Source: an uncultured Clostridia bacterium
Lineage (GTDB): Bacteria > Bacillota > Clostridia > Christensenellales > UBA1242
Direction: 5' to 3'
DNA length: 45,046 nucleotides
NCBI GenBank assembly: GCA_930990975.1
Contig: CAKNRR010000011.1
Span: 1 to 45,046, forward strand
Positions 9,544 to 44,997 of this stretch are shown piece after piece. A model generated the notes under the pieces. That model made no database searches and was not told the DNA's origin. It worked only from the letters and a program-made list of their open reading frames with translations. The position numbers and the translations under genes are program-made. Every line of letters begins with the position of its first letter. Within the stretch, counting starts at the first letter, position 1.

Positions 9544-9585
9544 ATTTATCTCCTTTTAGTATAACTTTTCTTACCTTTCATACTA

Positions 9586-9614: not shown

Positions 9615-9636
9615 TCAATTATAAAAATTTTATTCT

Positions 9637-11022: not shown

Positions 11023-11024
11023 AC

Positions 11025-17245: not shown

Positions 17246-17246
17246 A

Positions 17247-17898: not shown

Positions 17899-17899
17899 A

Positions 17900-18904
17900 C
17901 TATTCCACCTCGCTTGTATTTTGTTTTGATTTGGTTTTAGTTGTTCTTTTTGCCTTTGGCCTATCACTTGCTTCTATATTTTCTTTATTTGTTGATTCCA
18001 CTTCTTTTTGACTTTGTTCTTTGGTATCTTTTTGTTTTGTTTCTTGATTTTGAGTTTTGTGTAAGTTCCTAATTGTGTATTCAATATTGCTTTCTACATT
18101 TGCAATAAGTTGTTTTGAAACAGAACGTATTTTTTGCAAATTGCCTTTAAAATCCTCCAACTGTTCATCACTTAAATTTTCTAATGACGAAAAGTCACAT
18201 TCTGGTAAATCAAGTCCTAATCTTGAATTAACTGCATAAATTGTTCCATACAATTCAACATCATCAATATTTGCAAGATTTTCTTTTTTAAGTCCATCAT
18301 AGTGTCGAGAATTTAAAGCCACAATAGAAACAGCTTTAATTAAAGTGTTTATTGTTTCATCTAATGTCATTCCATCTTTAATATGAATTTCTTTTTTTTC
18401 ATTATCTATCTGATAACTTTCTTCACAATCATCATAAACAAACTTATAGCCCTTTGCTGTGTATTCAAGTGCTTTTTTAGTGCAATCAAAATATTTTGCG
18501 ATTGTTTCTTTGTTTGTATTTAGATACTCATAGTTTTTGCCAACAGTTTGAGCAATATCAAACAAATATCCGACTTCAACTTTTAGTTTTTCTGTTCCGT
18601 CAGTGTAAATTTTCCCATTTTCTTCTTTAAATCCAAGATTATTTGAATAAATGTGATGAGAAATAATTTTAATTGCTTTTTCATCTTTTTTAATATTTCG
18701 TTTGTAGTAATTCCATTCTGTTAATCTTTTAACACATGTCGCATCTGGATTTTGCAACAAGATTAAAATGCTATTATCAACAGTTTGGTCAACGAAAACT
18801 CCAATATTTCTTAAAATAGATTTAACTTGTCCTTCTTTAATCAACTTTGAGTAATTATTTTGAACAGCTTTTGTTAAATCTTCTAATGTTATTAATTTAT
18901 CCAT
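17900..18904 (-). CDS. LtrC/ArdC-like single-stranded DNA-binding protein
   Basis: A 334-aa protein. Residues 40-100 (QTVDNSILILLQNP, LTEWNYYKRNIKKDEKAIKI) resemble the ArdC N-terminal ssDNA-binding domain, as in LtrC proteins of Gram-positive conjugative elements. The middle region lines up with the metallopeptidase part of ArdC-type proteins but shows no HExxH, so peptidase activity is unlikely. The tail is Lys/Gln/Glu-rich and probably disordered. Such proteins may coat and protect the transferred strand. Its ATG overlaps the VirB4 stop as TAATG. Confidence 0.65.
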   Translation of the reverse strand: MDKLITLEDLTKAVQNNYSKLIKEGQVKSILRNIGVFVDQTVDNSILILLQNPDATCVKRLTEWNYYKRNIKKDEKAIKIISHHIYSNNLGFKEENGKIYTDGTEKLKVEVGYLFDIAQTVGKNYEYLNTNKETIAKYFDCTKKALEYTAKGYKFVYDDCEESYQIDNEKKEIHIKDGMTLDETINTLIKAVSIVALNSRHYDGLKKENLANIDDVELYGTIYAVNSRLGLDLPECDFSSLENLSDEQLEDFKGNLQKIRSVSKQLIANVESNIEYTIRNLHKTQNQETKQKDTKEQSQKEVESTNKENIEASDRPKAKRTTKTKSKQNTSEVE

Positions 18905-21534: not shown

Positions 21535-22396
21535 TGTTCTGCTCCTTTATTAAAATTGATTTTCCTTGGGCATGATTTATAAAACTATCACCTTTAACAA
21601 CGTTCTTTGCTCTTGGAATAATGTTCTTTGTCATTCCAACAATTCCACCAGTGGTAAGGTCTTTAATCATACCAATAGGCATTGTGGCAATACGTGTTGG
21701 CATACCTCCGTATTTAGCAAGTTTACTCGGTTCAGTTGCTTTATTGAGATATGTTTTACTTGGCGTTGCGCCAAACGATGATTTAAGTCCAGAGATTGAA
21801 GAACGGGTTGATTTCTTCGTGTCAACAAATCTTTTTCCACCAAGAATTGCTCCACCAATTGTTGCTCCTGTCGCCATAGTTGCTCTTGCAATATTTCCAC
21901 CTGTTCTCATATTTGCAAGTAGTTGCTGTGTTTCATGACCACCGGCTTCACTACCTGTTAATTGAGCTATAACAATATTTGCTTTTGTTACTGCAAATGC
22001 TCCACCTATTAAGAACAGAATTTTTACAATTCCATTTTTAAAACTATCAGTGAAAAATGTTATTTGTTGAACCTGTGGAATTATGATAAAAAACAAATTC
22101 ATTGAAAGTATAATTCCATAAGCGCCTAAAACTTTTGCTATTGTCATTTCCTTCCAAATTCTAAATCTATTTCCATCATCAACCGGAATAGTGCTAACAC
22201 TAATTGGCGAAATTATAAACAAAAGAACTATGTCAAATATTCTTTGAATAAAGGTTACTGCACTCAATAACAAACAAGTGGTTATAATTATCTCAATTGA
22301 ACCACTATAAAGCCACCTTGCAACAGAAATTCCTAGTAAAAATATTATAAACGGATAAAATAAAAACCTAAAATTTACAACTTTTTTCTTTTGCAT
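21503..22396 (-). CDS. VirB6-like conjugation membrane protein, possibly N-terminally truncated
   Basis: About 297 aa with four or five membrane helices in the first 150 residues, including IFDIVLLFIISPISVSTIPVD followed by DGNRFRIWKEMTI. This resembles the large transmembrane proteins of Gram-positive and mycoplasma ICEs (Mbov_0396-like, VirB6 role). A Gly/Ala-rich region and a basic soluble tail follow. Those proteins are usually much longer with more N-terminal helices. Here neither the ATG at 22396 nor the TTG at 22423 has a good ribosome binding site, and a stop closes the frame just upstream. The N-terminus may have been lost where the inverted lipoprotein gene now lies. Confidence 0.7.
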   Translation of the reverse strand: MQKKKVVNFRFLFYPFIIFLLGISVARWLYSGSIEIIITTCLLLSAVTFIQRIFDIVLLFIISPISVSTIPVDDGNRFRIWKEMTIAKVLGAYGIILSMNLFFIIIPQVQQITFFTDSFKNGIVKILFLIGGAFAVTKANIVIAQLTGSEAGGHETQQLLANMRTGGNIARATMATGATIGGAILGGKRFVDTKKSTRSSISGLKSSFGATPSKTYLNKATEPSKLAKYGGMPTRIATMPIGMIKDLTTGGIVGMTKNIIPRAKNVVKGDSFINHAQGKSILIKEQNNADNTEKHEG

Positions 22397-22534
22397 ATTC
22401 CAATTCGAAATATATTTTAGCAAAAGTTTAATATAAAATTAAATGTTTTTACATTAATTTATTAAATTTTCTTCTAAAAATCATAAAATTGAAAATCTTT
22501 AAGAATTTACTCCAAACATTTTTGAATTAAACTA

Positions 22535-22585: not shown

Positions 22586-24796
22586 ATGACAAAACAAACA
22601 AACAACATACAAGGTGTTGTAAAAGATCGCAAACCAAAAAGACTTGCATTTAAAAATAAAATAATTGCTGGCATTCTTGCTCTTGGTCTTGCATTTGGAC
22701 TTGGTGCAACATTAACTGCATGTGGACCTGATGAACCTACTCCACCACCAGTTACTATTTCAAATGTTACACAACTTGTTCAAGAATATGATGAACAAAC
22801 TGATAAATTCTTAAATAATGAAGTTCTTGAAGATGCAGTTAAATATTCAACAGGAACGTATGATGAAGAGAAATTACTTGATGCAACATACGATTTAGGA
22901 GATGGAAATAGCAAGACATTAAACTCTGTAAAAGTAATTTTTACATATAAAGATGGAGACGATCGTTTATATAATGTTAATGAAATGAAATTTGAAACAA
23001 GTATTGATTTAGGTAAAATAGCAAATTATGACCAAAATCAGACAGAACTTGCTCAAATTGCAGATGACGCAACAATATCAAATCAATACACAACAACTTA
23101 TAATGTAATTGAAAGTGTCCAAAACGATAAACTTGCAGAAGCAATTTACAAAAATGTAGTAAAATCAAACGAAACTGCAACTCACTTAACATTAAAAAAT
23201 AATGGAGAAATTTATTTCGCATTGGGAGGAAGCACAAAAGTATCATTGTGTAATCAATATGAACTTGTTGCTCAAACAAATTCATCTGTAAAATCTTATG
23301 ATTTAGTTATTAAACAACAAGATAGCATTGAAGATATGATTTCAAGTTTATCAAATCCTAATAATTATAAACTTAGAGAAACAAGAGATATTGAAAATAT
23401 AGAAACATCTGTCGTATATAAAGAATATGAAAAAGAAAATGTTGATGTTCCACCTCCAGTAGAAGAAATTGATAACATTGGCGAACTTTTAAAAGATCAT
23501 GCTACTGAAACATATGCATTCTTAAACAAACAAACAGAAAAAGCAGTGGAAAAAATTGTTGGTGAATATAACAAGCAAAATGTAAAAGCAGTAAGATATG
23601 ACATCGGAGATAACAGTAAGGAAGAACTTAACAATGTAAAAGTTGAAATTGTTGTTGCAGATCCTAGTGTTGAAGGAAAAGAAACTTATTATAGAGCAAC
23701 CGTAAACTTTGCCTCACCTGTTGATTTGAATGAAATTGCTGAAAATGGTGAAAATACAGTAGCAGAAGTTGAAAATGCAAATATTGAAGATACTTTTGAA
23801 TATAATGCAAAAGAAATGTATTTCAGACAAGGAATTGTAGATGCTCTTATGGAAATTGCTGGAGTAAATGAAAATGACGGACACGTTATGGTAGACTTTG
23901 GTGCAGACAATGCTGGAGAAACAACATTTACAATGCTTGTAAGTTCAGAAGCAGGTGTAACTGAATATGATATAACCGTTGCTACAGGAACAAATGAAGC
24001 AGAAACAATTCAAAACATCAAAGATGCAGGAATAATGGATAATGAACAAAGCGTTATTATATTTAACAATGCTTACACTGAACAAGAATATAAAGAACAA
24101 GAATATACAATTGAAAATATTGAAGAAGCACTTGAATATTATTCTGAGCAAATCAATGCAAACCTTCAAACTATTTATGACGCTGTTATAAATAAATTCG
24201 GAAGAGGTTATGAAGTAAATTCTTATAAAATTGACTTAGGTGAAGTTGTTGATGGAAAAATTTCAAATATTAAATTTGGCATCTCATATACAGATCCAAG
24301 AAACGATAATAATGGATATAGAATTTATAATGTTACACTTCCAACTGAAATTACTGTTAATAATTTGTTAGATAAATCTGTTATAGAAAATTTAAAATTA
24401 TCTGATGATAATATAAAACAAGAATATAGTTATATATATAATCCAGCAACACAAGGCGATAAAGATGACTTTATTAAAGCAGTTGTAAATAAATTTGACC
24501 CAGATTTTAATCTTGAAAGTGAAGATGTTAAATTAATTTATACAGATAATGGATCAACTCTAGATGACGATTATGGCACATGTAGAAATTTTAAAATCGT
24601 TGCAATTTCAAATGAAGGAGTAAGACAATATAGCATTATCACACCTAATATTCAAGACTCTGAACTTATTGATTATATTTCAAGAGATGCTTTCAAATTA
24701 AATGGTAAAGTTGAACTTGACTTCTTTGATAATCAAATCAATGTTGAAGTTGAAAATGAAGCAGAACAAGCAAACTATGACGAATATGATTTATAA
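22586..24796 (+). CDS. Lipoprotein with three tandem repeats
   Basis: A 736-aa surface lipoprotein. After a basic N-terminus comes a hydrophobic stretch and the lipobox LTAC (Cys near residue 47), so the mature protein is anchored through a lipid on Cys, followed by a Pro-rich linker. The rest is three diverged repeats of about 215-235 aa starting near residues 56, 292 and 507. Each has a helical Phe-Leu/Asn-Leu segment (DKFLNNEVLEDAV, YAFLNKQTEKAVE, NANLQTIYDAVI), a Tyr-Asp/Lys-x-Asp-[LI]-Gly strand and an [IV]-x-x-[TA]-Y-x-D strand. The family is not recognised. It is the only long plus-strand gene and splits the transfer operon. It could be an adhesin or an exclusion protein. Confidence 0.85.
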   Translation: MTKQTNNIQGVVKDRKPKRLAFKNKIIAGILALGLAFGLGATLTACGPDEPTPPPVTISNVTQLVQEYDEQTDKFLNNEVLEDAVKYSTGTYDEEKLLDATYDLGDGNSKTLNSVKVIFTYKDGDDRLYNVNEMKFETSIDLGKIANYDQNQTELAQIADDATISNQYTTTYNVIESVQNDKLAEAIYKNVVKSNETATHLTLKNNGEIYFALGGSTKVSLCNQYELVAQTNSSVKSYDLVIKQQDSIEDMISSLSNPNNYKLRETRDIENIETSVVYKEYEKENVDVPPPVEEIDNIGELLKDHATETYAFLNKQTEKAVEKIVGEYNKQNVKAVRYDIGDNSKEELNNVKVEIVVADPSVEGKETYYRATVNFASPVDLNEIAENGENTVAEVENANIEDTFEYNAKEMYFRQGIVDALMEIAGVNENDGHVMVDFGADNAGETTFTMLVSSEAGVTEYDITVATGTNEAETIQNIKDAGIMDNEQSVIIFNNAYTEQEYKEQEYTIENIEEALEYYSEQINANLQTIYDAVINKFGRGYEVNSYKIDLGEVVDGKISNIKFGISYTDPRNDNNGYRIYNVTLPTEITVNNLLDKSVIENLKLSDDNIKQEYSYIYNPATQGDKDDFIKAVVNKFDPDFNLESEDVKLIYTDNGSTLDDDYGTCRNFKIVAISNEGVRQYSIITPNIQDSELIDYISRDAFKLNGKVELDFFDNQINVEVENEAEQANYDEYDL
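22751..24793 (+). repeat. Three tandem protein repeats within the lipoprotein gene
   Basis: Units at about 22751-23455, 23459-24100 and 24104-24793 encode related domains in the same order of motifs. DNA identity between units is low, so this is an old duplication and not a recent array. Confidence 0.65.
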
Positions 24797-32047: not shown

Positions 32048-32409
32048 TTTTCATTCTCCTCTTTTTTAGGCGAAGAATACCTGTCCAATAGAGAACTAAT
32101 AACTTCTTGAACTTTACAATTGCTATCAAACTCCTGCAAAAGTTTAAGAGCTCTGCCGATGATTTGCAGTTCATCGTTTGTTAAAGTTCTTCCTTTATAA
32201 ATGTAGTTCTTTGGCAAATACACTCCACCACGATTTACGCCGCCACAAAAACTTTGGATAGGATAGCGAAAAGATAAAGATTGAATATGTCTTTTTACTG
32301 TTGAGCGAGAAACTTCAACTTCGTCTGCAATTTCATTTATAGTATGAATTTTGCAGTCCGAAAGAATATTCAAAATATCAGCAGTAATGCTTGATTTTCT
32401 CAAATCCAT
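32044..32409 (-). CDS. HTH (DeoR/WYL N-terminus-like) regulator
   Basis: A 121-aa protein with a winged helix-turn-helix at residues 8-65 (ILNILSDCKIHTINEIADEV, VSRSTVKRHIQSLSFRYPIQ, a Gly-rich wing). This is the arrangement of DeoR- and WYL-type N-terminal domains, but no effector domain follows. AGGAGGTG precedes the ATG. It is the first gene of the sigma-like, accessory and relaxase block and could control it. A hairpin (32462-32486) overlaps its probable promoter region. Confidence 0.8.
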   Translation of the reverse strand: MDLRKSSITADILNILSDCKIHTINEIADEVEVSRSTVKRHIQSLSFRYPIQSFCGGVNRGGVYLPKNYIYKGRTLTNDELQIIGRALKLLQEFDSNCKVQEVISSLLDRYSSPKKEENEK

Positions 32410-32461
32410 TCACTATCACCTCCTTTTAGTTCTTGTTTTGACACGCACATCATAACAATGT

Positions 32462-32486
32462 CGCTGGCTCACCATTTGAACCAGCG
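32462..32486. promoter_or_regulatory. Inverted repeat upstream of the HTH gene, possible operator
   Basis: CGCTGG-cTCA (32462-32471) and TGAa-CCAGCG (32477-32486) form a hairpin with one mismatch. It is much more GC-rich than its surroundings. It lies about 55 bases upstream of the HTH start, in the stretch that must hold its promoter (a TATGAT sits downstream on the minus strand), so it may be an operator. No T-run follows on the minus strand. Confidence 0.5.
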
Positions 32487-32517
32487 GGAAAAATTTTTTA
32501 ATTTTTTTAGGAAAATT

Positions 32518-32558
32518 TATAAAAAAATCCCAAGCGATTTGTCGTTCGCTTGGGATTT
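32518..32558 (-). terminator. Second of two tandem terminators after the LexA-like operon
   Basis: A perfect 12-bp stem (AAATCCCAAGCG at 32525-32536, CGCTTGGGATTT at 32547-32558) with a 10-base loop, followed on the minus strand by a run of Ts. It separates the repressor operon from the HTH-sigma-mobilization block. Confidence 0.85.
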
Positions 32559-32576
32559 ATGCCGAAATATGTCGAA

Positions 32577-32627
32577 ATAAAAAACCACAGCGACCGATTG
32601 AATTTTAATCAACCGGAACGCTGGGTT
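32577..32627 (-). terminator. First of two tandem terminators after the LexA-like operon
   Basis: A long imperfect stem (left 32583-32600, right 32610-32627, with AACC, CAGCG, CCG and TTGA blocks pairing) followed on the minus strand by TTTTTTATTT. It begins 11 bases after the stop of the zinc-ribbon gene. Confidence 0.75.
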
Positions 32628-32637
32628 CGCTTATGGT

Positions 32638-32826
32638 TTAATCAATGAATTCCATTATAATATAGATTTGTTGTTTGTATTTCCAACACTTCATATCGTG
32701 GACGAAATGCTTTTTGCTAAGGCGAGTTGGCTTTGAGATTAAAACTTTATTGACTGCACTGCTATCACTTGATATGCACTCGCCTAAACACCGTCCACAA
32801 TGTGGACAATAAAGTTTGTTAGTCAA
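32638..32826 (-). CDS. Small Com-like zinc-finger protein
   Basis: A 62-aa protein with CPHCGRCLG at the start and a later MKCWKYKQQIYI. This resembles the phage Com regulator pattern, in which the second knuckle is KCxxC. Here the last Cys is Tyr, so the second knuckle looks degenerate. The start is TTG, set by GGGAGG nine bases upstream. It follows the LexA-like gene by 15 bases and ends in tandem terminators, so it belongs to the repressor operon. Function is unknown. Confidence 0.6.
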   Translation of the reverse strand: MTNKLYCPHCGRCLGECISSDSSAVNKVLISKPTRLSKKHFVHDMKCWKYKQQIYIIMEFID

Positions 32827-32841
32827 TTTTTCTGCCTCCCG

Positions 32842-33438
32842 TTAAAAACTATGAATATTGTGTTTAACAACTCCTTGAATAATCACATTATCCGCAACAA
32901 TATCCTTATATTTTGGATTTTCTGGGTGCAATATAATGTGACCATTTTTCCTATGTAAAGTTTTTACAGTTGCTGAGTCTTCAATTAAAGCCACAACAAT
33001 TTCGCCTTCATCTGCCGTGCTACAGGGTTTTGCGACAATTAAGTCACCGTCAAAAATCCCTACACCTATCATACTATCACCAGAAGCGTGCAATAGTAAG
33101 ACGTTTTCGTTTCCAAAGATTGCAGTTGGCAATTGGTAAGTTGCTTCAATGTTTTCTTCAGCATAAATAGGATTTCCACAAGCAATAGTTCCGACCAACG
33201 GGGCGACAATAGTCTTTCCTTTGCTTAAATTTGTTGGTATGATTATCTTTCCAATTGTATTCTTTTGTAACATTTTTCGTTCTTGTAATACATTTACATA
33301 CTTTTGAGCAGTAGCAAGACTTGGAAAACTACAGCCCTTTGCTATTTGCCTAAAAGATGGAGAACGACCTTCGTTTTTTTGAAATTCTTTGATAAATTCG
33401 AATACTTTTACAACTTTATCTTCACTTATCACTTTCAT
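32842..33438 (-). CDS. LexA-like self-cleaving SOS repressor
   Basis: A 198-aa repressor. The winged-helix N-terminus reads EGRSPSFRQIAKGCSFPSLA, as in LexA. The cleavage site is Cys87-Gly88 in VGTIACGNP (Ala-Gly in classical LexA), the catalytic Ser122 lies in ASGDSMIGVGI and the Lys159 in ATVKTLHR. It should cleave itself when RecA is activated by DNA damage. The ATG at 33438 is chosen because GGGAG lies seven bases upstream. The frame reaches 33459. Its own promoter carries an exact DinR-type box. It may be an element-borne copy that links transfer or cargo expression to SOS. Confidence 0.9.
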   Translation of the reverse strand: MKVISEDKVVKVFEFIKEFQKNEGRSPSFRQIAKGCSFPSLATAQKYVNVLQERKMLQKNTIGKIIIPTNLSKGKTIVAPLVGTIACGNPIYAEENIEATYQLPTAIFGNENVLLLHASGDSMIGVGIFDGDLIVAKPCSTADEGEIVVALIEDSATVKTLHRKNGHIILHPENPKYKDIVADNVIIQGVVKHNIHSF

Positions 33439-33460
33439 ACCAACTCCCATTATAAACATA

Positions 33461-33471
33461 CATACTGTATG
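33461..33471. promoter_or_regulatory. Short palindrome between promoter and LexA-like start
   Basis: CATAC-T-GTATG is an 11-base inverted repeat downstream of the -10 element and upstream of the ribosome binding site. It could be a second operator. It is not of the GAAC-N4-GTTC type. Confidence 0.4.
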
Positions 33472-33482
33472 CTTATGGTTAC

Positions 33483-33511
33483 ATTATAGAACATTTGTTC
33501 TAAAAAAGCAA
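33483..33511 (-). promoter_or_regulatory. SOS-type promoter with DinR/LexA box
   Basis: On the minus strand TTGCTT (33506-33511) and TATAAT (33483-33488) are 17 bases apart. The spacer contains GAACATTTGTTC on the plus strand (33489-33500), an exact GAAC-N4-GTTC box touching the -10. Binding here would block RNA polymerase, so the LexA-like gene should be autoregulated and SOS-induced. Confidence 0.88.
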
Positions 33512-33515
33512 TGGT

Positions 33516-33556
33516 TTTTAATAAAAAAATTGGATTCTTTTAAATCCAATTTTTTA
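33516..33556 (-). terminator. Terminator beyond the upstream side of the methyltransferase operon
   Basis: TTGGATT (33530-33536) and AATCCAA (33543-33549) form a stem with A and T runs on both sides, 20 bases past the second methyltransferase stop. It ends the seven-gene defence operon and can also work in the other direction. Confidence 0.8.
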
Positions 33557-33572
33557 TTATTGATATTAAAAA

Positions 33573-34685
33573 TTAATATTTTAATTGTGGTAAAACTATT
33601 TTCAAAATATGTATTAATACATCTACAACTATCGAATTACCTGCTTGTTTATACATTTGAGCACGAGAAACCACAATTTTAAAATCATCAGGAAATCCCA
33701 TTAAACGTAAAGCTTCTCTTTCTGTTAACATCCTCAATTCGCCATTAACATAATGGTAATTATCAATTCCAGCTCTATGTCTATTACCCATTGTTGCTAA
33801 TAATGTTCTTGCTATTTTCAAATCAACTTCTGGTTTTTGATAAAAGGTTTTTGTTCCCGGTTTTAATACATATGCTTTTACTTTAGGTGATAAGAAATAT
33901 CTTTTATCGACTTGTTCACCACCAGCAATAACTTCCAATTTCCCATTAATAGAAACAAAATTTCCTTCTTTGCAATTTTCTTGTAAAATATCTTTTACAT
34001 TAAAATATACATTTTTTTCTGGAGTAGGTGGATATTCAAAATTATTTTTAAGAAATTTTTCTTTATAACCTACAACATATAATCTTCTTCTATTTTGCGG
34101 AATACCATAATCTTTAGCATTTAAAAGATCAAATTTATACTGATAATTCAATTCATCAAATGTAGATTGTATTACTTTCCATGTATTACCACCATCGTGT
34201 GTATATAAACCTCGAACATTTTCATATAGAAACATTTTTGGTTGAATCTCTTTTACCAATCTAGCAAATTCATAAAATAAAGTTCCTCTTGTATCTTTTA
34301 ATCCACCACATTTTCCTACCGTTGAAAAACTTTGGCATGGACTTCCGCCAATTAGAATATCAACTTTACCAGTAAAATCTTTACCATCAAGCAACTTTAT
34401 ATCATAGAAAAACATGTCATCTTTTATTTTATAATTTGCTTCATATGACTTTTTTACATAATTTTCTTTTCTTGAATGCGTTTTATATAAATTTTCCACA
34501 TAATCTCTTTTTTGGGCTGGGCCTTCAAGAGATAAAACTTTTTCGAGTTCTTTATCAAAATCTATATTCTCTAATGGAATATTGCCATTATCACAAGCAA
34601 AAACAATTTCATATTCTATACCCATTCTTTTTAATGCCTGTTCAAACGCGCCAATACCACTAAATAACGTAGCTATTCTTAACAT
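33573..34685 (-). CDS. C5-cytosine DNA methyltransferase, second of a tandem pair
   Basis: A 370-aa enzyme with all C5 methylase motifs: I (LFSGIGAFEQALKRMG), IV with catalytic Cys (IGGSPCQSFSTVGKCGG), VI (YENVRGL), VIII (IPQNRRRLYVVG), IX near IARTLLATMG and X (QAGNSIVVDVL). The target recognition region lies between VIII and IX. It is a paralogue of the upstream gene: their first 34 residues are nearly the same. It is the last gene of the MORC-Z1 operon, starting 9 bases after the first methylase with GGAG in front. The pair would protect host DNA, perhaps each modifying one strand of an asymmetric site. Confidence 0.92.
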   Translation of the reverse strand: MLRIATLFSGIGAFEQALKRMGIEYEIVFACDNGNIPLENIDFDKELEKVLSLEGPAQKRDYVENLYKTHSRKENYVKKSYEANYKIKDDMFFYDIKLLDGKDFTGKVDILIGGSPCQSFSTVGKCGGLKDTRGTLFYEFARLVKEIQPKMFLYENVRGLYTHDGGNTWKVIQSTFDELNYQYKFDLLNAKDYGIPQNRRRLYVVGYKEKFLKNNFEYPPTPEKNVYFNVKDILQENCKEGNFVSINGKLEVIAGGEQVDKRYFLSPKVKAYVLKPGTKTFYQKPEVDLKIARTLLATMGNRHRAGIDNYHYVNGELRMLTEREALRLMGFPDDFKIVVSRAQMYKQAGNSIVVDVLIHILKIVLPQLKY

Positions 34686-34694
34686 ATTTCACTC

Positions 34695-35768
34695 CTATAT
34701 CAGTTTATATTTTAATAGTTGTTTTACTATTTCTTCCAATACATTAACAACTATTGAATTCCCAGCTTGTCGATACATTTCCACATCATCTACAACAATT
34801 TTAAAGTCATCTGTAAATCCCATAAGTCTCAAACATTCTCTTGGTGTCAGCTTTCTAACCACCCCGCGAACATTATTATAATAACCTATATATGCATTAT
34901 CAAGAATATCTTGTCTATTTTTTATTTTTTCATATTCTTCAAAAACAAAATCACCATTCCAATTAAATTGTTGATTTGCTTTTTGTGTGGATATTATTTT
35001 ACTATTTATTCTTGCTCTTTTATTTGTTGTGACAAATTCAAATCCTTTTTGTTTAAAATAATACTTTACATCAACATTACTTTCTAAAAAATCAAACATT
35101 GTTTTAGTTAATTTTTGTTTTTCAAGTGTATCTGGTAACAAATTTTCTTTTAAAGTTCCTACTAAAAAAATTCTTCTTCTATCTTGTGGAATTCCAAAAT
35201 CTTTTGAATTAAGTTCATAAAATTTTATATTATATCCCAATGACATAAAAACATCTTTAACAACTTTCCAAGTATTCCCTTTATCATGACTAAGTAACCC
35301 TTTAACATTTTCATATATAAATGCTTTTGGCTTACATTCATCAATTATTCTAGCATAATCATAAAACAAAGTTCCTCTAGTATCATTTAACCCCGCTCTT
35401 TTCCCAATTATAGAAAAACTTTGGCATGGACTTCCTCCAACAATTAAATCCACTTTATCTTTGTATTGATTTGCATTCAAAAATCTAACGTCTTGATAAA
35501 AATGCTTTTTTGATAAATTGTAATTATTCAAATATGAACATTCCATTTTGTTTTCTTTCTTACATTTATGTTCATATAATTCATCTATATATTCTTTTTG
35601 TTTATCATAAGGTAAATTTTTTATCTCATTGTTAATTTCATCTACATTTAATGAAATGTTTCTTTCCCCATTATCGCAAGCAAATACTATTTGATGTTCT
35701 ATACCCATTTTCTTTAATGCTTGTTCAATTGCGCCAATACCACTAAAAACAGTTGCTAAACGTATCAT
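34695..35768 (-). CDS. C5-cytosine DNA methyltransferase, first of a tandem pair
   Basis: A 357-aa enzyme with motif I (VFSGIGAIEQALKKMG), IV (VGGSPCQSFSIIGKRAG), VI (YENVKGL), VIII (IPQDRRRIFLVG) and X (QAGNSIVVNVL). It shares the opening MIRLATVFSGIGAIEQALKK with its neighbour but differs in the target recognition region between motifs VIII and IX. The two could therefore recognise different sequences or strands. AGGAG lies before the ATG, and the unknown 163-aa gene ends 16 bases upstream. It is the modification part of the predicted restriction-like system. Confidence 0.92.
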   Translation of the reverse strand: MIRLATVFSGIGAIEQALKKMGIEHQIVFACDNGERNISLNVDEINNEIKNLPYDKQKEYIDELYEHKCKKENKMECSYLNNYNLSKKHFYQDVRFLNANQYKDKVDLIVGGSPCQSFSIIGKRAGLNDTRGTLFYDYARIIDECKPKAFIYENVKGLLSHDKGNTWKVVKDVFMSLGYNIKFYELNSKDFGIPQDRRRIFLVGTLKENLLPDTLEKQKLTKTMFDFLESNVDVKYYFKQKGFEFVTTNKRARINSKIISTQKANQQFNWNGDFVFEEYEKIKNRQDILDNAYIGYYNNVRGVVRKLTPRECLRLMGFTDDFKIVVDDVEMYRQAGNSIVVNVLEEIVKQLLKYKLI

Positions 35769-35784
35769 TTTTTTCTCCTATGTA

Positions 35785-36276
35785 TTATTTAATATTATAA
35801 GTTTCTTCAAATGTAGATTTCTTCATAACATCAACTTTCCAATTAATAAAATCAGCAATAAATATTAAATCATCATCAACCGTAAATCCACCTTTTTTCA
35901 TTTTTGCTTTTATTATTTCATTCATTGATCCATTTGTTTTTGTTTTATTCGTTTCTTTATCTAATAAAGATACTTTTAACTGGAATTGACCGTTTGGTTC
36001 ATTTGCATTAATTGTTATTTTCACAAACTTATTTTTTAAACCTTGACAGTTAAAAATTTTATCACCATATTCTCCTAAGTTTTTTTCTCTTCCAAGAAAA
36101 TATGCCGTAACAGGATTTTCAAACCTATGTTCAATATCCAACAGCCCAAAATACAAACTATTATCAGAACCCACCGCTAATTTATTTGCATTAGTCATTT
36201 TCCTTGCGATAATAATTCCATTATCTTTTATTTCATAATAAAATTCAAATTTTGAATTAACAACTCTCTTTTTCAT
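35785..36276 (-). CDS. Unknown 163-aa protein of the defence operon
   Basis: Not recognised. It is a mixed alpha/beta protein with FEFYYEIKDNGIIIARKM at the start, AVGSDNSLYFGLLDIEHRF in the middle and an Asp-rich strand (VDDDLIFIADFINW) near the end. No signal peptide or membrane helix. AAGGAG precedes the ATG. It lies eight bases from the AIPR gene and 16 bases from the first methyltransferase, inside the operon, so it is probably a functional part. It may be a specificity or adaptor subunit. No function is claimed. Confidence 0.75.
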   Translation of the reverse strand: MKKRVVNSKFEFYYEIKDNGIIIARKMTNANKLAVGSDNSLYFGLLDIEHRFENPVTAYFLGREKNLGEYGDKIFNCQGLKNKFVKITINANEPNGQFQLKVSLLDKETNKTKTNGSMNEIIKAKMKKGGFTVDDDLIFIADFINWKVDVMKKSTFEETYNIK

Positions 36277-36284
36277 ATTGCTCC

Positions 36285-38357
36285 TTATTCTGAGAACCCT
36301 TCAATTCTCAATTTATTTAATGCTTCCATAGCACGTTTACTTTGTTTGTCCGAAAGTATCTTGCCACTTGTTGCTAATTTAATTATAGAAGATTCTTCAA
36401 AAGTTAATAATCTATGTTGTTGTCCCCATAATAGCGCTGATTTCCAAAAATCTTGACCTTTGTTATAAACTTCCATTATTAAACTGCAATCATCTTCTAT
36501 TTTTTGATTGTATGTCGCATTCTTCCTTTCTTCATCAACAAATTCTTTTGATACTAACGCTGATAATGTATTTTTAGAAAAATCATAATTTATAGATTTT
36601 ATACCTTTCCAACAAGCTTCTTTTTTACACCATTCGGACACATTCATTATTTGTCGATCTTCATTTGTAATTTTATCGAAAATTATTTTACTTAGTTTTG
36701 TTAATTCTTTTACAATTTCTGGATTAAGTTCTTGATGTTGCCAAACATATTTAAAATTATAAGAAAATTGTGGATATTTTGTTTGTAAAACGTAAAAAAA
36801 CTCTGAAATTGTATATGTTACAATATTAGCTCTATATCCCTTTTCATACCACGGTTGATTAAGTATAATATCTTCTAATTTTTTAAACATAATTGCATGG
36901 CATACAGCTTCTTTAAAATAATTTTCATTATAATTTGCATTATGTTTTTCCCAGTCATCAGTAATTACCTCGGCAAAAGATAGAAAATTCCTTTGAGCAC
37001 CTTTACTTACTTCGTATGGTTTTTGATTGTAACTATTCAAATACTTTGCTAAATCGGTTTTTGTTATTAACTGTTTTTTAGGATTTTCCAATAAAAATTT
37101 TGATTTCATTGCAGGTGTCAACTTCATTTGTTCTTGTGTATATTGCCCTCTTGCTCTTTCATAATACCATCTAGTATGATATTGTGCGCCATTAACAGCA
37201 GGAGCAAGAATTTTCCTAGATAATTGTTCAAAACGTATATGAAATTGATGATTAGAAAAGAAATCTGCTTCACTTACTTTGTTTTGACTATTAGCACATC
37301 TTGCTATTTCAGGAATTATATATGGAGCTTTTTCTAATGGTAAAATCGAAATTTTCGCAGGCACTAGAATATTGCTTAAATCAACACCTTTTTCTTTCGC
37401 ATTTGTCATAGATAAAGAAGCTGTTGTTTGTCCACCATTAACAATTTGTAAAGACTTTATTTTTTTTATAAAAAGTCCCTCATTTGTATTATCTAATTCA
37501 ATATTAGTTGCCGTTGCTGCTATACCATTATTGTATGCAAAAAACATTTGTGGTTCAGTTAAAATAGTTCTTTTTATTCCACTATTAACTTTACCTTTCA
37601 AACTCAAAAATGAACGAACATTTCCTTCAAGTAATCGTCCACCGAATTCGTCATATATTTTTACCAAAAATTCTGCTGGAATTATACAAAGATAAGATTC
37701 ATAATTTGCATTTTCCATATTTGCTTTAATACATGGTATACCTTGCTTTGTATAGTCGTCTACATTTATTTCTATATCTTCCTTACCACTTGTTGATTGT
37801 TGAAGTTTGTAAAATCTTGAAATATCCCACAAGTGATATTCAATATCTATATCATTATAAGTTTTTGATTTTATGGTTTTGATTCTTTCACTCGCAATAC
37901 CGTCACAAACTAAATATATTTTAATCTTTCTTATATACTTTGATTTTAATTTAGTTTGCATATCAAGTGCAAACTCATATCCAGCAGCACTTTCTTCTCC
38001 ATTTTTAATTATGTAATCATTTTCATCAATAAATACTCCAACTCTATCAAAGTATTTTTGTGCAATTGTTTGATTAATTATTGTTGGTGTGGATGATCCA
38101 TCATAAATACAACAAATTATATATAATGTCATATCACTTTCATCAAAAGCATATCCATCTATTTCAAATTTTTTATTATGGCTTGCTGTCCCCTCATAAT
38201 GACATTCTTGAAAATCATTAAATTCTTCGGCGTCACTAAGGATATTTGTAGTATATTTCAAAAACTCTAATTTTTGATAGTTCAAATTTACATTTGAATT
38301 TAATTTAACATCTTGCAAAATTGAATTTCTAAAATCTATTAATTCGTCATTTGTCAT
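36285..38357 (-). CDS. AIPR family protein
   Basis: A 690-aa protein of the AIPR (abortive infection phage resistance) family. Characteristic segments are PQMFFAYNNGIAATATNIEL near residue 268 and LQIVNGGQTTASLSM near 304, followed by ARCANSQNKVSEADFFSN. The N-terminal 200 residues are a separate alpha/beta region (FEIDGYAFDESDMTLYIICC) that may be a nuclease-like fold. Members occur in restriction-like operons and abortive-infection loci, with incompletely known activity. Its ATG overlaps the DUF4420 stop as ATGA. Length is typical, so the gene looks intact. Confidence 0.88.
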   Translation of the reverse strand: MTNDELIDFRNSILQDVKLNSNVNLNYQKLEFLKYTTNILSDAEEFNDFQECHYEGTASHNKKFEIDGYAFDESDMTLYIICCIYDGSSTPTIINQTIAQKYFDRVGVFIDENDYIIKNGEESAAGYEFALDMQTKLKSKYIRKIKIYLVCDGIASERIKTIKSKTYNDIDIEYHLWDISRFYKLQQSTSGKEDIEINVDDYTKQGIPCIKANMENANYESYLCIIPAEFLVKIYDEFGGRLLEGNVRSFLSLKGKVNSGIKRTILTEPQMFFAYNNGIAATATNIELDNTNEGLFIKKIKSLQIVNGGQTTASLSMTNAKEKGVDLSNILVPAKISILPLEKAPYIIPEIARCANSQNKVSEADFFSNHQFHIRFEQLSRKILAPAVNGAQYHTRWYYERARGQYTQEQMKLTPAMKSKFLLENPKKQLITKTDLAKYLNSYNQKPYEVSKGAQRNFLSFAEVITDDWEKHNANYNENYFKEAVCHAIMFKKLEDIILNQPWYEKGYRANIVTYTISEFFYVLQTKYPQFSYNFKYVWQHQELNPEIVKELTKLSKIIFDKITNEDRQIMNVSEWCKKEACWKGIKSINYDFSKNTLSALVSKEFVDEERKNATYNQKIEDDCSLIMEVYNKGQDFWKSALLWGQQHRLLTFEESSIIKLATSGKILSDKQSKRAMEALNKLRIEGFSE

Positions 38358-39283
38358 AAAATATCTCCCTTATAAAATTTTTCTATTTCAGAAGTTGATA
38401 TTTCATATTTTAACGCAATTATTTCATTAGGAATAATATTTCTACGAATCCTAGGGAAATTGCAATCTACCAAATAAGTTTTCATTCTTTTCATTTCAAA
38501 AGTATAATTATTGTATTCTTCATCTTTTATATATCCAAAATTAAAAATTATCTCTTCAAATTTTTCTTTTGCATTTATATTCTTTAATCCATTTAGCGTG
38601 TTTTCAATTAATTCATTTAGATTTATTGCATGTGAAGATGTTGAAGCTGTTTTGTTCAATTCTATGACAATTAGTTTCCCATCTTCATTCGTATCCAATT
38701 GTTCAATAGACGATATTTCTATACCTTTGGCACCAGAATTTATACTTTTAATTTCAAACCACGTTGAATTAATAACAAAATCTTGATCAGCCCCCATAGT
38801 TCCAAGCCACGAATTTATTGCTTTTTCTTCACCAAAAGTTGGTATCATATATTTTTTTAAAAAGAGTATTTCTCCAATTAGTCCCTTAATTTCAGATTCT
38901 GAAAGTATTTTTAATTTTTGTTTTGCAAATAATTCACGCCATTTTAAATATCTATTAATTATTGCCGCATTACCATTTGTTTTTTGAGAATACCTTGTTG
39001 ATTCTATAATATCACTACAAAAAATATAAAATAGATCTTCTATAGTTTTATCTTTTAATTTAAATGTTAGAATGTTCTCATTGTCTTTTTTATATTCATT
39101 TACAAGAATTCCTTTTGATGATTTAACATCTCCAAATTCGATCTTAGAGATAACAAATAAAGTTTTTAGCCCCTCATCACTTAACCCTAAAAATATGTCT
39201 AATGGATGTTTAGCATCTATTCTTTGCATAGTGCTACTTCTACTAAAATTGTCAAAAAATTGTTTCACTTCCTGTTTATCCAT
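38354..39283 (-). CDS. DUF4420-like PD-(D/E)XK nuclease
   Basis: A 309-aa protein. The nuclease core reads Glu138 in LIGEILFLKKYM, Asp166/Asp168 in MGADQDFVI, and Glu177-Ile-Lys179 in WFEIKSIN, matching a PD-(D/E)XK active site. This fits DUF4420 proteins, found beside Z1 ATPases. It is the most likely DNA-cutting subunit of the system. GAGGAGG inside the Z1 gene's last codons serves as its ribosome binding site, and its ATG directly follows the Z1 stop. Confidence 0.85.
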   Translation of the reverse strand: MDKQEVKQFFDNFSRSSTMQRIDAKHPLDIFLGLSDEGLKTLFVISKIEFGDVKSSKGILVNEYKKDNENILTFKLKDKTIEDLFYIFCSDIIESTRYSQKTNGNAAIINRYLKWRELFAKQKLKILSESEIKGLIGEILFLKKYMIPTFGEEKAINSWLGTMGADQDFVINSTWFEIKSINSGAKGIEISSIEQLDTNEDGKLIVIELNKTASTSSHAINLNELIENTLNGLKNINAKEKFEEIIFNFGYIKDEEYNNYTFEMKRMKTYLVDCNFPRIRRNIIPNEIIALKYEISTSEIEKFYKGDIL

Positions 39284-42019
39284 TTACATATCCTCCTCGT
39301 CTTCAAATGTATCTCCATATAATTCCCTAAATTTAATTAGATTGATTACATATTTAATCGTTATTATCTTTTCATCATTTGTTGTTGGAAATCCAATACT
39401 TAATCCGACAATTGGCTTATCAAACTTATCTAACTGCTTCTTAGTCTCTTTACATATTAAATTTGTTTCTTTGTCAATTATATATGCTTTTGGTTTAATC
39501 AAATGGATAATTAAAATGGGGTTTCTTTTTATGCCATGTAAAAACACTTTATCGCTTACCGATTTACCAGTTGCTTTTGTATAATCTTTTTCCATTTTTG
39601 CTGCTGTTTTTTTATCTAAACCTAGTTTAGTGGTATAAGTTCCACCAAGCCTTGCATTTGAGAATTGTAAAGCAGATTTACTAGGAATATATTTAGCACT
39701 TCTTGATATAAGCATTGTTTTAACATTATTGGTTACATTGTATTCTTCTCCTGAACCAGTAGCAAATGAAATATCCCAAAAATCAAAATTACCATCTTCA
39801 TCATTGTCAATTATTTTTGCTAATTCTTCAGTTTGAAAATCAAAATTGAAATAATTTGATTTGTATCTCTTTATAAATGAAGTAACAATTTCTTTTGGAA
39901 CATTTTGCCATAAGTTTGGAGCTCCTATGATATTAAAATCATTGCACTTGTATTTATTATCTAATGATACTAATAAAGAGATCAAATCATCATAATTTTT
40001 ATCATTAATACTGCTATCACTATTAACAATTGCCGTTTCTAATACTTCTCCACTAATAGAAACAGGAATTTCTATTGATTCCGTGCTTCTCATTTTATTT
40101 CTTGCAGTAACTAATAACGAAGCTTTATCGGAACGAACCTTTAACCCAAAATCTATTGGGCTTTTATTTTCGCCTTCCATAATTTTAATTTCTTCTCTTA
40201 AATCATCACTTGCCCTAGATATATAAGAATACCAATCAATAGCTTCTTGTGATAACCAAATTCTACACAAATCTTCATAGCCAGTTCTATAACCAAACCA
40301 CCTACCCATTTGCATTAATGTATCATACATTTTTGAATTTCTATAAAAATAACTTATTATTAATCCTTCAAGTGTTAACCCTCTTGATAAACTATTACCT
40401 CCAATTGCTATTAATCGTAATCCATCTGGATATTCAGAATAATTCAAATTTTTTGCACCATTTGATTGGTTAACAACACGAACTACAATAGGGCCAATAG
40501 ATTCTGATAGTTTACATTGTATTTGACTCCACGTAAATTCAGTAGTTTTTGCATAATTCTTTTCCCAATAATATTTTAATTTTGCAATTGTTTCACATTT
40601 AAGAGCTCTTTCTTCATCTAATAAACAATTTGCCTTAATATCTCTTTGAATATTTCTAACAAAAGCATCAATTATTTCATAAACTTGATTCTGAACTTTT
40701 GTAAATCTACTTACATTAACAAGCATTGATCTATGTGCTTTATTTTTCTTACGTAAATCACGAATAACATTTGCAATCATAAATGTATATAATGCTTCAT
40801 ATAAATCCTCAGGTAACTGAGAAACAGCATAATCACTTTTATGAGATTCGGGTAAGAATTTTGAAATTTCCTCATCATTTATTACTTTTAACATATATCC
40901 ATGTTTTGATTGAACTGTTTCACCATCTTCATTCGTTGTTGGGAAAATTGTCCTAGCACCAATATAATTTGATGGTGCATCCAAAGCGTATATAAAGTCA
41001 CGAGGAAATAAATCTTCTCCAATCATATCATTATCCGTCTCAGGGTTTATAAATATATTAGCAAAAGGCGTAGCTGTAAAACCAACATAAGTTGCTTTTG
41101 TAAACATATTTAATATCTCTCTTATTTTTCTATTGATTGCTGTTGGATCTTCTTCACTACTTTTTGTATTTATGGACGCATTATCAGCTTCATCATCAAT
41201 TACTAATATTGGTTCATCTACTTTTGGTAAATATCCTTTACTTAAATTTAACCAATCTATAACCCTTTCTAATATTGTTTTATTTTTTTTAATTACTAAT
41301 AAAATTGGTGCATTAATATTTGATATTGTCGCAACAAGATGTGTTGCAGCAGCAGTATTAAAATCAGAACTTGTTGATGTTAAAGATAAAGCATTTATAC
41401 TACTATCAAACTTACCTACACCTACAAAACTATTTGTTTTTTTCTTTATAATTGACAAACTATCAAGTCCAACAAAACCCTCATCAAGTCTAACTTGTGT
41501 TTGCTTTCTTAAATTTTCTAGTGTTCCAGTAAGCAATACAATCACTTTATATCCTACATCTGCTGCCTTATTAATAAGTGCTGTATAATTGGCAGTTTTA
41601 CCTGATTGTACATCTCCTATAACTAATCCTCTTCGATTAAATGGATCTCCTTCTGGGTCTCCTAACAAATCTATTATTCTATCTGAAGAAGCGTCAATAG
41701 AGTTAACCACATTACTAGCAAACTCTTTGTCAACTGTAAGATAATCTCTATATCTTAACCAAAATTTCATAGGTTTAATAGCTCTTCTACTATCAAACCA
41801 TTTCTTATGAATACCGTTACCTTGAACAACAGATCCTAATGTCATAAAAATTTTATATTTTGCATTTATTTCGTTTTTTATTTCTTCTTTTTCTTCTTCA
41901 GTAATATTAAACAATAAAGAGAATTTGTTTATATTTGTTACTATATCATCCATTGTAACAGTATCTAGCTTGCTTAATAATGTGTTAAGTAAATTAATTA
42001 CTGTTTCCTTATTTGTCAT
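39284..42019 (-). CDS. Z1 domain helicase-like ATPase
   Basis: A 911-aa superfamily II-type ATPase. Walker A is IGDVQSGKTANY (Gly135-Thr142), motif II is LVIDDEADNAS near 276, motif III-like VGFTATPFANIF near 316, and an arginine-rich motif VI-like LMQMGRWFGYRTGY near 570. The Z1 domain (SRGLTLEGL, then FYRNSKMYDTL) lies just before that. It probably moves along DNA or remodels complexes for the nuclease. The ATG overlaps the MORC stop by 11 bases, with AGGAGG in front. All ATPase motifs are present. Confidence 0.9.
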   Translation of the reverse strand: MTNKETVINLLNTLLSKLDTVTMDDIVTNINKFSLLFNITEEEKEEIKNEINAKYKIFMTLGSVVQGNGIHKKWFDSRRAIKPMKFWLRYRDYLTVDKEFASNVVNSIDASSDRIIDLLGDPEGDPFNRRGLVIGDVQSGKTANYTALINKAADVGYKVIVLLTGTLENLRKQTQVRLDEGFVGLDSLSIIKKKTNSFVGVGKFDSSINALSLTSTSSDFNTAAATHLVATISNINAPILLVIKKNKTILERVIDWLNLSKGYLPKVDEPILVIDDEADNASINTKSSEEDPTAINRKIREILNMFTKATYVGFTATPFANIFINPETDNDMIGEDLFPRDFIYALDAPSNYIGARTIFPTTNEDGETVQSKHGYMLKVINDEEISKFLPESHKSDYAVSQLPEDLYEALYTFMIANVIRDLRKKNKAHRSMLVNVSRFTKVQNQVYEIIDAFVRNIQRDIKANCLLDEERALKCETIAKLKYYWEKNYAKTTEFTWSQIQCKLSESIGPIVVRVVNQSNGAKNLNYSEYPDGLRLIAIGGNSLSRGLTLEGLIISYFYRNSKMYDTLMQMGRWFGYRTGYEDLCRIWLSQEAIDWYSYISRASDDLREEIKIMEGENKSPIDFGLKVRSDKASLLVTARNKMRSTESIEIPVSISGEVLETAIVNSDSSINDKNYDDLISLLVSLDNKYKCNDFNIIGAPNLWQNVPKEIVTSFIKRYKSNYFNFDFQTEELAKIIDNDEDGNFDFWDISFATGSGEEYNVTNNVKTMLISRSAKYIPSKSALQFSNARLGGTYTTKLGLDKKTAAKMEKDYTKATGKSVSDKVFLHGIKRNPILIIHLIKPKAYIIDKETNLICKETKKQLDKFDKPIVGLSIGFPTTNDEKIITIKYVINLIKFRELYGDTFEDEEDM

Positions 42020-43478
42020 TTAACATCTCCTCCTTAATTTTGTTTATTATGTGAATATATTTATTAAAAGGTTCTATGGTTATCAAACTATTTACTAAAT
42101 CTTTCATTTCAAGACCTGCTTTCTCCCCATTCTCAATATATTCCATCATTTCTTTGAAAATAAATTCATCATTTGGTTGCTGTGAAGCAATATTACCTTT
42201 ACTTACATCAACATAGACAGCATCATAAGGAAAAGAATCCTGAATTAAATTTATAAATTTTTCAAACTTACTTTTTTCTTCTATAGTTAAAGAATTTTCA
42301 TATTGTTTTACAATTGGGTGATTTTGATTGATTTGATATGAATAATTTCCTCTATTTTCAATTTTAACCCAAACAGAATTTATATTTTTTGAGTTAACAT
42401 TTCTACCTCGATATGTAAAAACTTTTTCACTTTTATCTACAATATTTTTTATAATATTGCATAAATTAATTTTAATAACATCAGGTAAATTAGCAGAAGA
42501 TTTTTTTATATCTATTTGCCAAATTGAATCTAATGTATTAGGTATATCTACCATAACTCTTGCTAATTTAAATAGCTCTTCTTGTCTTGACATCTTAAAC
42601 CAAGTTCCCCACTTAATTAACCTTTTATTCCTATAAATATAAAAACCTTGGTTTCTCTTAAACCCATCTTCTCCACCAACCATATATTTATCTTGTTGCG
42701 ATAATTTGCTAAAATGTGGTAATATGTAGGGTTTTACAAGTATTTTTTCTCCAAATATTTCCAATGGTTCCAAAGGTAATACTTGTGTAGCAGTATGATA
42801 ACTTAAAAATGGATCTAATGGTTTAAGTTTGTTATTATTTACAAATATATTAACTCCATGTTGTGGGTCCTCGTAAGATAAATATCTATGGAATACTAAT
42901 GATAAGTGGTACATTAAATCATTGGTTTTTTCATTTAAACTATCCGATAAAGATATAGAACTTTCTTTTATATAATCAAAATTTTGCCATAAGACTATTG
43001 TCCCACTTTCTAAATTACTTAATTTTTCAATCATTGGAATGCTTGCATTAATTTCGTCTTTCTCAAATATAATCAATTTCCAAGATTTGGTCTTATTTAT
43101 ATAATCTAAATCCCAACAACAAGCATTTATTACCCCATTTTTTTTAGAAATTACCGTTAGTTTTCTACATTGAGATAAAGAAGCTGTTTTCATACCTAAT
43201 CCAAATCTACCCAAATCATTTGAATCTCTTGTTTTATTTGGATTATCGCTACCGTATCTCATTGCATTTTGCAAATCAATTAAATTCATTCCAAAGCCAT
43301 CATCCAATATAGCGACATATGGACTGTCGTAAGCATTTATATCAACATATATATTTTTTGCTATTGCACTTATACTATTGTCTATTATATCAGCAACAGC
43401 AGTCTCAAATGAATAGCCAATAGATCTAGTTGATTCTATTAAATTAGGTGCTAGCGGCAACATATCAATATCTTTCAT
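42009..43478 (-). CDS. MORC/MutL-type GHKL ATPase
   Basis: A 489-aa protein whose first 200 residues are a GHKL ATPase. The N box is ETAVADIIDNSISA with Asn34, motif II is DDGFGM (59-64), and motif III is GRFGLGMKTAS (90-100). The next region (WQNFDY, then HRYLSYEDPQHGVNIFVNN) fits the second domain of MORC and MutL-like proteins. The C-terminus is helical. Such ATPases close like a clamp on DNA. It is the first gene of the seven-gene operon, has TTGGAG before the ATG and an extended -10 promoter upstream. In restriction-like operons it may be the DNA-sensing clamp. Confidence 0.9.
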   Translation of the reverse strand: MKDIDMLPLAPNLIESTRSIGYSFETAVADIIDNSISAIAKNIYVDINAYDSPYVAILDDGFGMNLIDLQNAMRYGSDNPNKTRDSNDLGRFGLGMKTASLSQCRKLTVISKKNGVINACCWDLDYINKTKSWKLIIFEKDEINASIPMIEKLSNLESGTIVLWQNFDYIKESSISLSDSLNEKTNDLMYHLSLVFHRYLSYEDPQHGVNIFVNNNKLKPLDPFLSYHTATQVLPLEPLEIFGEKILVKPYILPHFSKLSQQDKYMVGGEDGFKRNQGFYIYRNKRLIKWGTWFKMSRQEELFKLARVMVDIPNTLDSIWQIDIKKSSANLPDVIKINLCNIIKNIVDKSEKVFTYRGRNVNSKNINSVWVKIENRGNYSYQINQNHPIVKQYENSLTIEEKSKFEKFINLIQDSFPYDAVYVDVSKGNIASQQPNDEFIFKEMMEYIENGEKAGLEMKDLVNSLITIEPFNKYIHIINKIKEEMLNDK

Positions 43479-43505
43479 ATTATCTCCAATAACTTTTCTA
43501 TTTTA

Positions 43506-43514
43506 AGTATACCA
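43506..43514 (-). promoter_or_regulatory. Extended -10 promoter of the MORC-Z1 operon
   Basis: On the minus strand TGGTATACT is an extended -10 element 28 bases upstream of the ATG. No good -35 is seen. It lies between the SLOG remnant and the operon, so the operon can be transcribed independently of it. Confidence 0.6.
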
Positions 43515-43591
43515 TATATTTTTACAAAATGTTTAAAATTTTCATAAAAAATTACCAAAATCTTTAATATATAAATATTAATTTAATAACA

Positions 43592-44164
43592 TTATTTAAA
43601 TTGAAGTAAATCAATAACAATTATTGGTTTCTTTAGTGATTTCGCATAATCTAATGTCTTTTTAGTTCCTCCATTCTTACCATTAAATAATGCAATTACA
43701 AGTGATGAATTATTAATCATATACTGATTACGCTCGAACATACACTTTGGACCAATGTAATCATCGTAAATACATCTTACACCATCTAATTTTGATAATA
43801 TATTTTTTTACTTTTGTTTGTCTTTTTCGTTCCAAAGTTTATCTTGTGTCTTACACGGAATAGCTCCAATTAATTTTATATTTGGGTATTCTTTTTTTAA
43901 TTGCAAAATAATTTCCGCACATATCATATCAAATCCAAGAGCCATACCCGAAATAAATGTTGTGTAACCATTTTTAATTGCTTTAATTATTTCTTCCTTT
44001 AATTTATTTTTCATTCTAATACATCTCTCATCTTGTTCATTAAATCTCCATGGTAAACTTTGTGGTCTATGACCAGTAAAACAGCAAACTTTATTTGATA
44101 ATTTATTATCTAACTCTTTTAATTTATTTTTCAATCCAAATATATTTTTAGATAACATATTCAT
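43592..44164 (-). pseudogene. SLOG (DUF1273/YpsA-like) gene split by an in-frame stop
   Basis: The first 118 residues read as a SLOG/DUF1273 Rossmann domain: CCFTGHRPQSLPW, then TTFISGMALGFDMICAEIIL and IGAIPCKTQDKLWNE. A TAA at 43808-43810 ends this frame. The same frame continues without another stop for 71 more residues to 43592, including RNQYMINNSSLVIALFN and GGTKKTLDYAKSLKKPI, the conserved C-terminal half. The full 190 aa is the usual family length, so a single nonsense change or sequencing error has broken the gene. SLOG proteins sense nucleotide ligands in defence systems or act as DprA-like proteins. GGAG precedes the ATG, and it starts the operon side of the divergent promoter region. 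Confidence 0.85.
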
Positions 44165-44178
44165 AAATCTCCTAGATA

Positions 44179-44249
44179 ATTATGTTTTTACATATATATA
44201 ATAACATAAAAATGTTCTTTCTCAATAAAAAATATTATGTTTTTACATA
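44179..44249. promoter_or_regulatory. Repeated operator-like sites in the divergent control region
   Basis: The 16-base sequence ATTATGTTTTTACATA is exactly repeated at 44179-44194 and 44234-44249, 55 bases apart. Each contains the dyad TATGT-TTTT-ACATA. A third palindrome, AACAT-AAAA-ATGTT, lies at 44203-44216. They flank and fill the leftward promoter at 44198-44225, and the second copy also fits the -35 region for the rightward gene. The likely binder is the adjacent 80-aa HTH protein. Confidence 0.7.
44198..44225 (-). promoter_or_regulatory. Leftward promoter before the SLOG remnant
   Basis: On the minus strand TTGAGA (44220-44225) and TATTAT (44198-44203) are 16 bases apart, about 34 bases from the SLOG start. 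One operator-like copy covers the transcription start region and another lies just upstream of the -35, so a bound repressor could shut it off. Confidence 0.65.
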
Positions 44250-44334
44250 ATTATTTATAAAAATGGCTATGTTAAACTATACCTAGTTAAATACATAATT
44301 ACATAGTTAAAATAAATATTGGAGTTGATAGAAT

Positions 44335-44577
44335 ATGAAAGTGTCACAAGCAGTTGCTACAAGAATTAGAGAAATATTATCTCAAAAACAAATGTCGCAA
44401 TATAGATTGGAAATGAATTCTGGATTAAGTAAAGGAACATTAACTTCTTTAATGTATGCAAGATATAAAGGTGTAAATCTTACAACTTTAATTATAGTCA
44501 TAAGAACACTTGGCATATCCATTGATGAATTCTTTAATAGTCCATTATTTAGTGAAGAAAATTTAGACATTGAATAA
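44335..44577 (+). CDS. Small HTH (Cro/CI-type) regulator, controller-like
   Basis: An 80-aa protein that is nearly all helix-turn-helix: IREILSQKQMSQYRLEMNS, GLSKGTLTSLMYARYKGVNL, then TLGISIDEFF. This size and fold match Cro/CI-type regulators and the C (controller) proteins of restriction-modification systems. It is divergent from the SLOG-MORC-Z1 genes across a region with repeated palindromes, so control of the defence operon is likely. GGAG is ten bases before the ATG. Could also be an ordinary phage-like repressor. Confidence 0.85.
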   Translation: MKVSQAVATRIREILSQKQMSQYRLEMNSGLSKGTLTSLMYARYKGVNLTTLIIVIRTLGISIDEFFNSPLFSEENLDIE

Positions 44578-44594
44578 ATTAAATATTTCATATT

Positions 44595-44640
44595 AAAAAA
44601 AGAGAGAATGGAAAAATTTTTCCATTCTCTTTTGTGTTTT
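44595..44640 (+). terminator. Terminator of the HTH regulator gene
   Basis: A perfect 14-bp palindrome (AGAGAATGGAAAAA at 44603-44616, TTTTTCCATTCTCT at 44617-44630), flanked by an A run and T-rich sequence. It is 25 bases after the stop. Confidence 0.8.
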
Positions 44641-44746
44641 GCACTTATGGTAGAACACAACAAAATTGACATTTTAACTTATAGTTAAAGCCATTTGGTA
44701 AGTTAAAATTCAATCGTTATCTTTAATTAATTTCACTCCAAGTTTT

Positions 44747-44997
44747 GAAATTTTACTATTTCACCAAATAAAATTTGACAACAAATATTTTTGATTTTAG
44801 ATGATTTTAGGCAATTTTATATGGTAAAACAGGTGCATTTTACCCCTAAAAAATAGGCATTTGTTGTCAACTGTTGTCAATTTACTATTTTTTTGACAAC
44901 AATTCTCGTTTTTGTTAACTAACAAAACTCTTTATTAATAAGGGTTTTAATCATATTGAGTTCAATTCCTTATCTTAAATATTCAAAACTTGGTAAA
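44747..44997 (+). repeat. Element-end segment, copy 2
   Basis: The right-hand homologue of 7204-7434. Matching blocks are TTTTAGGCA (44805-44813), CATTTG-TTGTCAACTG-TTGTCAA (44858-44880), ACAACAA (44896-44902), TTTTTGT (44909-44915), TTTTAA (44945-44950) and CTTGGTAA (44989-44996). This copy has additional TTGACAAC motifs (near 44775 and 44893), giving at least four TGTCAA-type sites in both orientations. These are good candidates for integrase arm sites. The whole stretch 44640-45046 holds no gene, and beyond 44997 the two copies no longer match. Confidence 0.7.

Follow-up and report, generated by a model that had tools for sequence, protein, structure and literature searches.

We analyzed a stretch of 45,046 nucleotides from an uncultured Clostridia bacterium (contig CAKNRR010000011.1; hereafter the window, to which all positions refer) that carries a seven-gene operon at 33573..43478 on the minus strand, encoding a MORC-type ATPase and its putative partners together with two DNA methyltransferases. 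An earlier note on this DNA had described the seven genes as one operon, and our analysis confirms this observation. In the direction of transcription, the features are as follows, with the apparent end of a mobile element given last.

43506..43535, minus strand: promoter-like site with an extended -10
42009..43478, minus strand: MORC-type GHKL ATPase, MzaB-like, 489 amino acids (Pfam, PADLOC and NCBIfam profiles)
39284..42019, minus strand: MzaC homologue (NCBIfam profile)
38354..39283, minus strand: DUF4420 protein, PD-(D/E)XK nuclease, MzaD-like, 309 amino acids (Pfam, PADLOC, aligned residues)
36285..38357, minus strand: AIPR protein, MzaE-like, 690 amino acids (Pfam, PADLOC and NCBIfam profiles)
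35785..36276, minus strand: 163-amino-acid protein with no relative detected in family and sequence searches
34695..35768, minus strand: C5-cytosine methyltransferase MTb, 357 amino acids
33573..34685, minus strand: C5-cytosine methyltransferase MTa, 370 amino acids
33519..33559, minus strand: intrinsic terminator, a hairpin with a T run
44988..44996, plus strand: apparent right end of a mobile element, where the related locus L045 departs from the window

The note had further proposed a single unit running from promoter to terminator. The terminator is borne out (-13.6 kcal/mol, z -4.5); the extended -10 site is present, but such sites are no more common than in shuffled sequences. Both methyltransferase genes are intact and lie inside the operon, ahead of the terminator.

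The proposed family assignments were upheld by Pfam, with matches to HATPase_c_3 (E 2.8e-35), DUF4420 (3.9e-60), AIPR (2.9e-95, with AIPR_N at 1.1e-31) and DNA_methylase (1.8e-71 for MTb and 1.6e-73 for MTa). PADLOC models of MzaB, MzaD and MzaE match the corresponding proteins (3.9e-75, 5.6e-16 and 7.3e-80), and by profile comparison the top solved relatives of the GHKL ATPase are MORC2, MORC4 and MORC3. The predicted PD-(D/E)XK site of the DUF4420 protein was located at E138/D168/E177xK179; its E, D and ExK residues are unvarying across eight aligned proteins.

Homologues of B, C, D and E stand consecutively in the window, in the same order as in MZA, an anti-phage system, mzaABCDE, reportedly described by Gao in 2020. 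Against the NCBIfam equivalog models for MzaB to MzaE, all four proteins score below the cut-off (309.4 bits against 850, 573.8 against 1500, 88.5 against 420 and 342.5 against 1050, respectively). PMC9523054 cites Gao 2020 for the MZA anti-phage system mzaABCDE, describes mzaA as a sigma factor, and prints DUF4220, presumably meaning DUF4420. MzaA is not in the operon: its model, PDLC02203, has seven matches in the genome, none of them on the contig of the window, and it also hits 10 of the 14 control genomes, which would be expected of a sigma-factor model.

The note had interpreted the locus, after Iyer 2008, as a restriction-like MORC system. A third class of MORC restriction operons is characterized by a MORC motif GhXhhpXXRhl, an SF2 motif DThhQXuRhFG and a restriction-endonuclease-fold E-D-ExK site (PMC2292703). 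The window matches all three signatures (GFYIYRNKRLI, DTLMQMGRWFG and the E138/D168/E177xK179 site), and AIPR and DCM are named in a figure legend of that article, as they are found here. From this class as described in PMC2292703, the window differs in having paired methyltransferases and no Vsr in the operon. Vsr was found neither in the operon nor in the scanned neighbors (30 window proteins); of ten accessory proteins from related loci that were scanned, five matched it. Overall, the interpretation is partly supported. The operon looks like a multi-protein antiviral system of an already described, MZA-like kind, of which it is a distant member.

Two further ideas about the AIPR protein were rejected. 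As a hidden nuclease it would need a lysine that is missing from the expected position, although the AIPR_N aspartate is kept in 69 of 76 rows; kinship with DGQHR/DndB, suggested by an NGGQ motif, was not supported by hhalign (probability 1% with eight sequences). Separately, AIPR may be linked to AbiU: PADLOC's model for the latter picks up the AIPR proteins of loci L039, L044 and L177, and is not listed for that of the window.

MTa and MTb are paralogues with 43% identity by BLAST (165 of 331 aligned positions in the alignment). Their divergence is greatest in the segment separating the catalytic blocks, which in C5 methyltransferases contains the part for target recognition. The three plasmid proteins that rank highest as matches of MTa (47.9-48.6% identity) are methyltransferases of LlaJI-type systems, adjoining an ATPase of the AAA class and an endonuclease of the LlaJI family; a further comparison with these three gave 47.6-48.6% identity for MTa and 49.5-50.3% for MTb. 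LlaJI uses two 5mC methyltransferases for GACGC/GCGTC (PMC1459862). The window likewise has two adjacent C5 methyltransferases, nearest to LlaJI-family ones in a comparison made with relatives and not with M.LlaJI itself. Unlike LlaJI, which has an AAA/McrB-like R1 and an R2 endonuclease, the window yielded neither: RE_LlaJI has no Pfam match among the operon proteins, and no open reading frame of the window matched either counterpart from L164, an AAA protein and an endonuclease, with the R2 query being weak enough to miss the LlaJI-like endonuclease of L028 as well. CglI and NgoAVII (PMC4267653) rely on a PLD-B3 nuclease, a domain absent by Pfam from the seven operon proteins, in place of which the window has DUF4420, MORC and AIPR. 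Elsewhere, at least two methyltransferases occur within the examined gene frame in 9 of 97 loci; in L051, a methyltransferase 53% identical to MTa is followed by a second one directly ahead of the core. A third C5 methyltransferase of the window (11637-12752, minus strand) lies within the conjugative part of the mobile element.

Several observations weigh against reading the operon as an MZA-like system that works together with its methyltransferases, a reading that we hold to be somewhat more likely than not. The conserved catalytic lysine is absent from AIPR_N, and the subunits showed no obvious domain for reading DNA sequence. Coupling between core and methyltransferase is loose (r 0.52), with the methyltransferase exchanged in about 8 of 63 loci. 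The methyltransferases of the MzaA-bearing loci L044 and L177 come with their own adjoining endonuclease gene, for a type II enzyme (together with Vsr) in L044 and for a restriction endonuclease in L177. Each of the three LlaJI-type relatives has one annotated methyltransferase, not two, albeit that L164 begins at the first base of its record, leaving its left side unseen. Finally, in L028 a LlaJI-like module stands back to back with the MZA core; besides an AAA protein and an endonuclease resembling that of LlaJI (22.9 bits against a cut-off of 23.6), it holds two methyltransferases, a pair only distantly related to that of the window. Because the LlaJI-type relatives have single methyltransferases and the L028 pair is distant, an asymmetric target site for MTa and MTb is an analogy with LlaJI.

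Part of this evidence favors an alternative in which the core, blind to methylation, serves as an abortive-infection or DNA-structure sensor, and the methyltransferases are passengers, remnants of a LlaJI-type system that has lost its restriction genes. The loose coupling and the LlaJI-like module abutting the core in L028 agree with it, as do nearby methyltransferases with endonucleases of their own, not only in L044 and L177 but also in L090 (EcoRII-C) and L050 (AAA with PD-(D/E)XK). By contrast, the two methyltransferases of the window are intact within the operon, a methyltransferase is kept within 9 kb in 75 of 80 loci, and a matching one is retained in 151 of 198 close pairs; we consider this alternative unlikely, with perhaps one chance in four left to it. 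A second alternative, to which we give roughly half that weight, is that the methyltransferase acts as the specificity subunit of the effector, like Mod in Type III systems, so that a new methyltransferase would confer a new target on the same core. Contact between core and methyltransferase is conjecture, and the nearest methyltransferase is on the strand opposite to the core in 20 of 80 loci. None was found in 5 of the 80 (L046, L047 and L066 of these lying on short contigs), and that of L090 has its own EcoRII-type endonuclease. Among the related loci, the core evolves as a unit and the methyltransferase is sometimes swapped. Two of them showed unusual neighbors: L123 has a second GHKL protein (17106-19190; 695 amino acids, two HATPase models) behind its methyltransferase, and in L099 a NOV_C (NO VEIN C-terminal) protein (8878-9765) takes the place held by MORC in other loci.

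The 163-amino-acid protein has no family match in Pfam or PADLOC, and its sole NCBIfam match is an arginine-tRNA-ligase model (E 0.055, far below cut-off). Outside its own genome, searches of 60 related genomes and 390 genomes of the class, and of phages, plasmids and viral contigs, gave no relative, the strongest chance match having E 0.0057; the only other copy, nearly identical, is in L045. The gene has a purine-rich stretch ahead of its start and codon use resembling that of its neighbors. Single-sequence AlphaFold2 gave a pLDDT of 38.9. Behind the tandem methyltransferases of the MZA-like loci L063 (18097-18708) and L078 (18143-18742) are proteins of 200-204 amino acids without a Pfam match; these are mutually related (47%) and show no relationship to the 163-amino-acid protein.

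The operon appears to be carried as cargo by an integrative conjugative element, because the contig also carries a tyrosine integrase (9637-11028), a MobL relaxase and VirB4- and VirD4-type ATPases (Pfam matches; the VirB4 and VirD4 names are ours). L045, from another uncultured Clostridia assembly, matches window positions 33,251-44,996 with four differences, whereas 249 alignment columns differ across 32,178-33,250. The defense cassette is thus nearly identical in two assemblies and the adjoining element sequence strongly different, as would result from an exchange of the cassette. We take base 44,996 as the right attachment end because L045 leaves the window there, continuing into a putative 3' half of tRNA-Thr, where ARAGORN called no gene. 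The left end was not found: no repeat of the right end exceeding 12 bases lies close to the integrase or tRNA-Thr; the 9-base right-end pattern occurs 20 times against a shuffle mean of 15.64, no excess. A Megablast search of the plasmid collection returned no similar DNA.

Upstream of the operon are a YpsA-type SLOG gene (43808-44164, minus strand), shortened to 118 amino acids compared with 190 in L045, and, on the opposite strand, an HTH_26 protein (44335-44577; Pfam), which is not known to correspond to the regulator of the described systems. The window also encodes an MmeI-like type IIG restriction-modification protein (2294-5035, minus strand; five MmeI domain models) and an RloB-like protein beside an AAA_21 ATPase (5188-7091, minus strand), possibly a second defense pair. 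Proteins of 736 (22586-24796, plus strand) and 306 amino acids (21503-22423, minus strand) have no Pfam match at the limits applied.

In conclusion, the operon adds to the known systems paired methyltransferases, a protein without relatives, and the result that the core is a unit and the methyltransferase a module. According to PMC9523054, how this widespread system discriminates between phage and host DNA requires further investigation. A core that behaves as a unit, combined with an exchangeable methyltransferase, turns this into a question that can be posed as a swap, and the window supplies a natural example in compact form, with two paired methyltransferases whose target is readable by sequencing.
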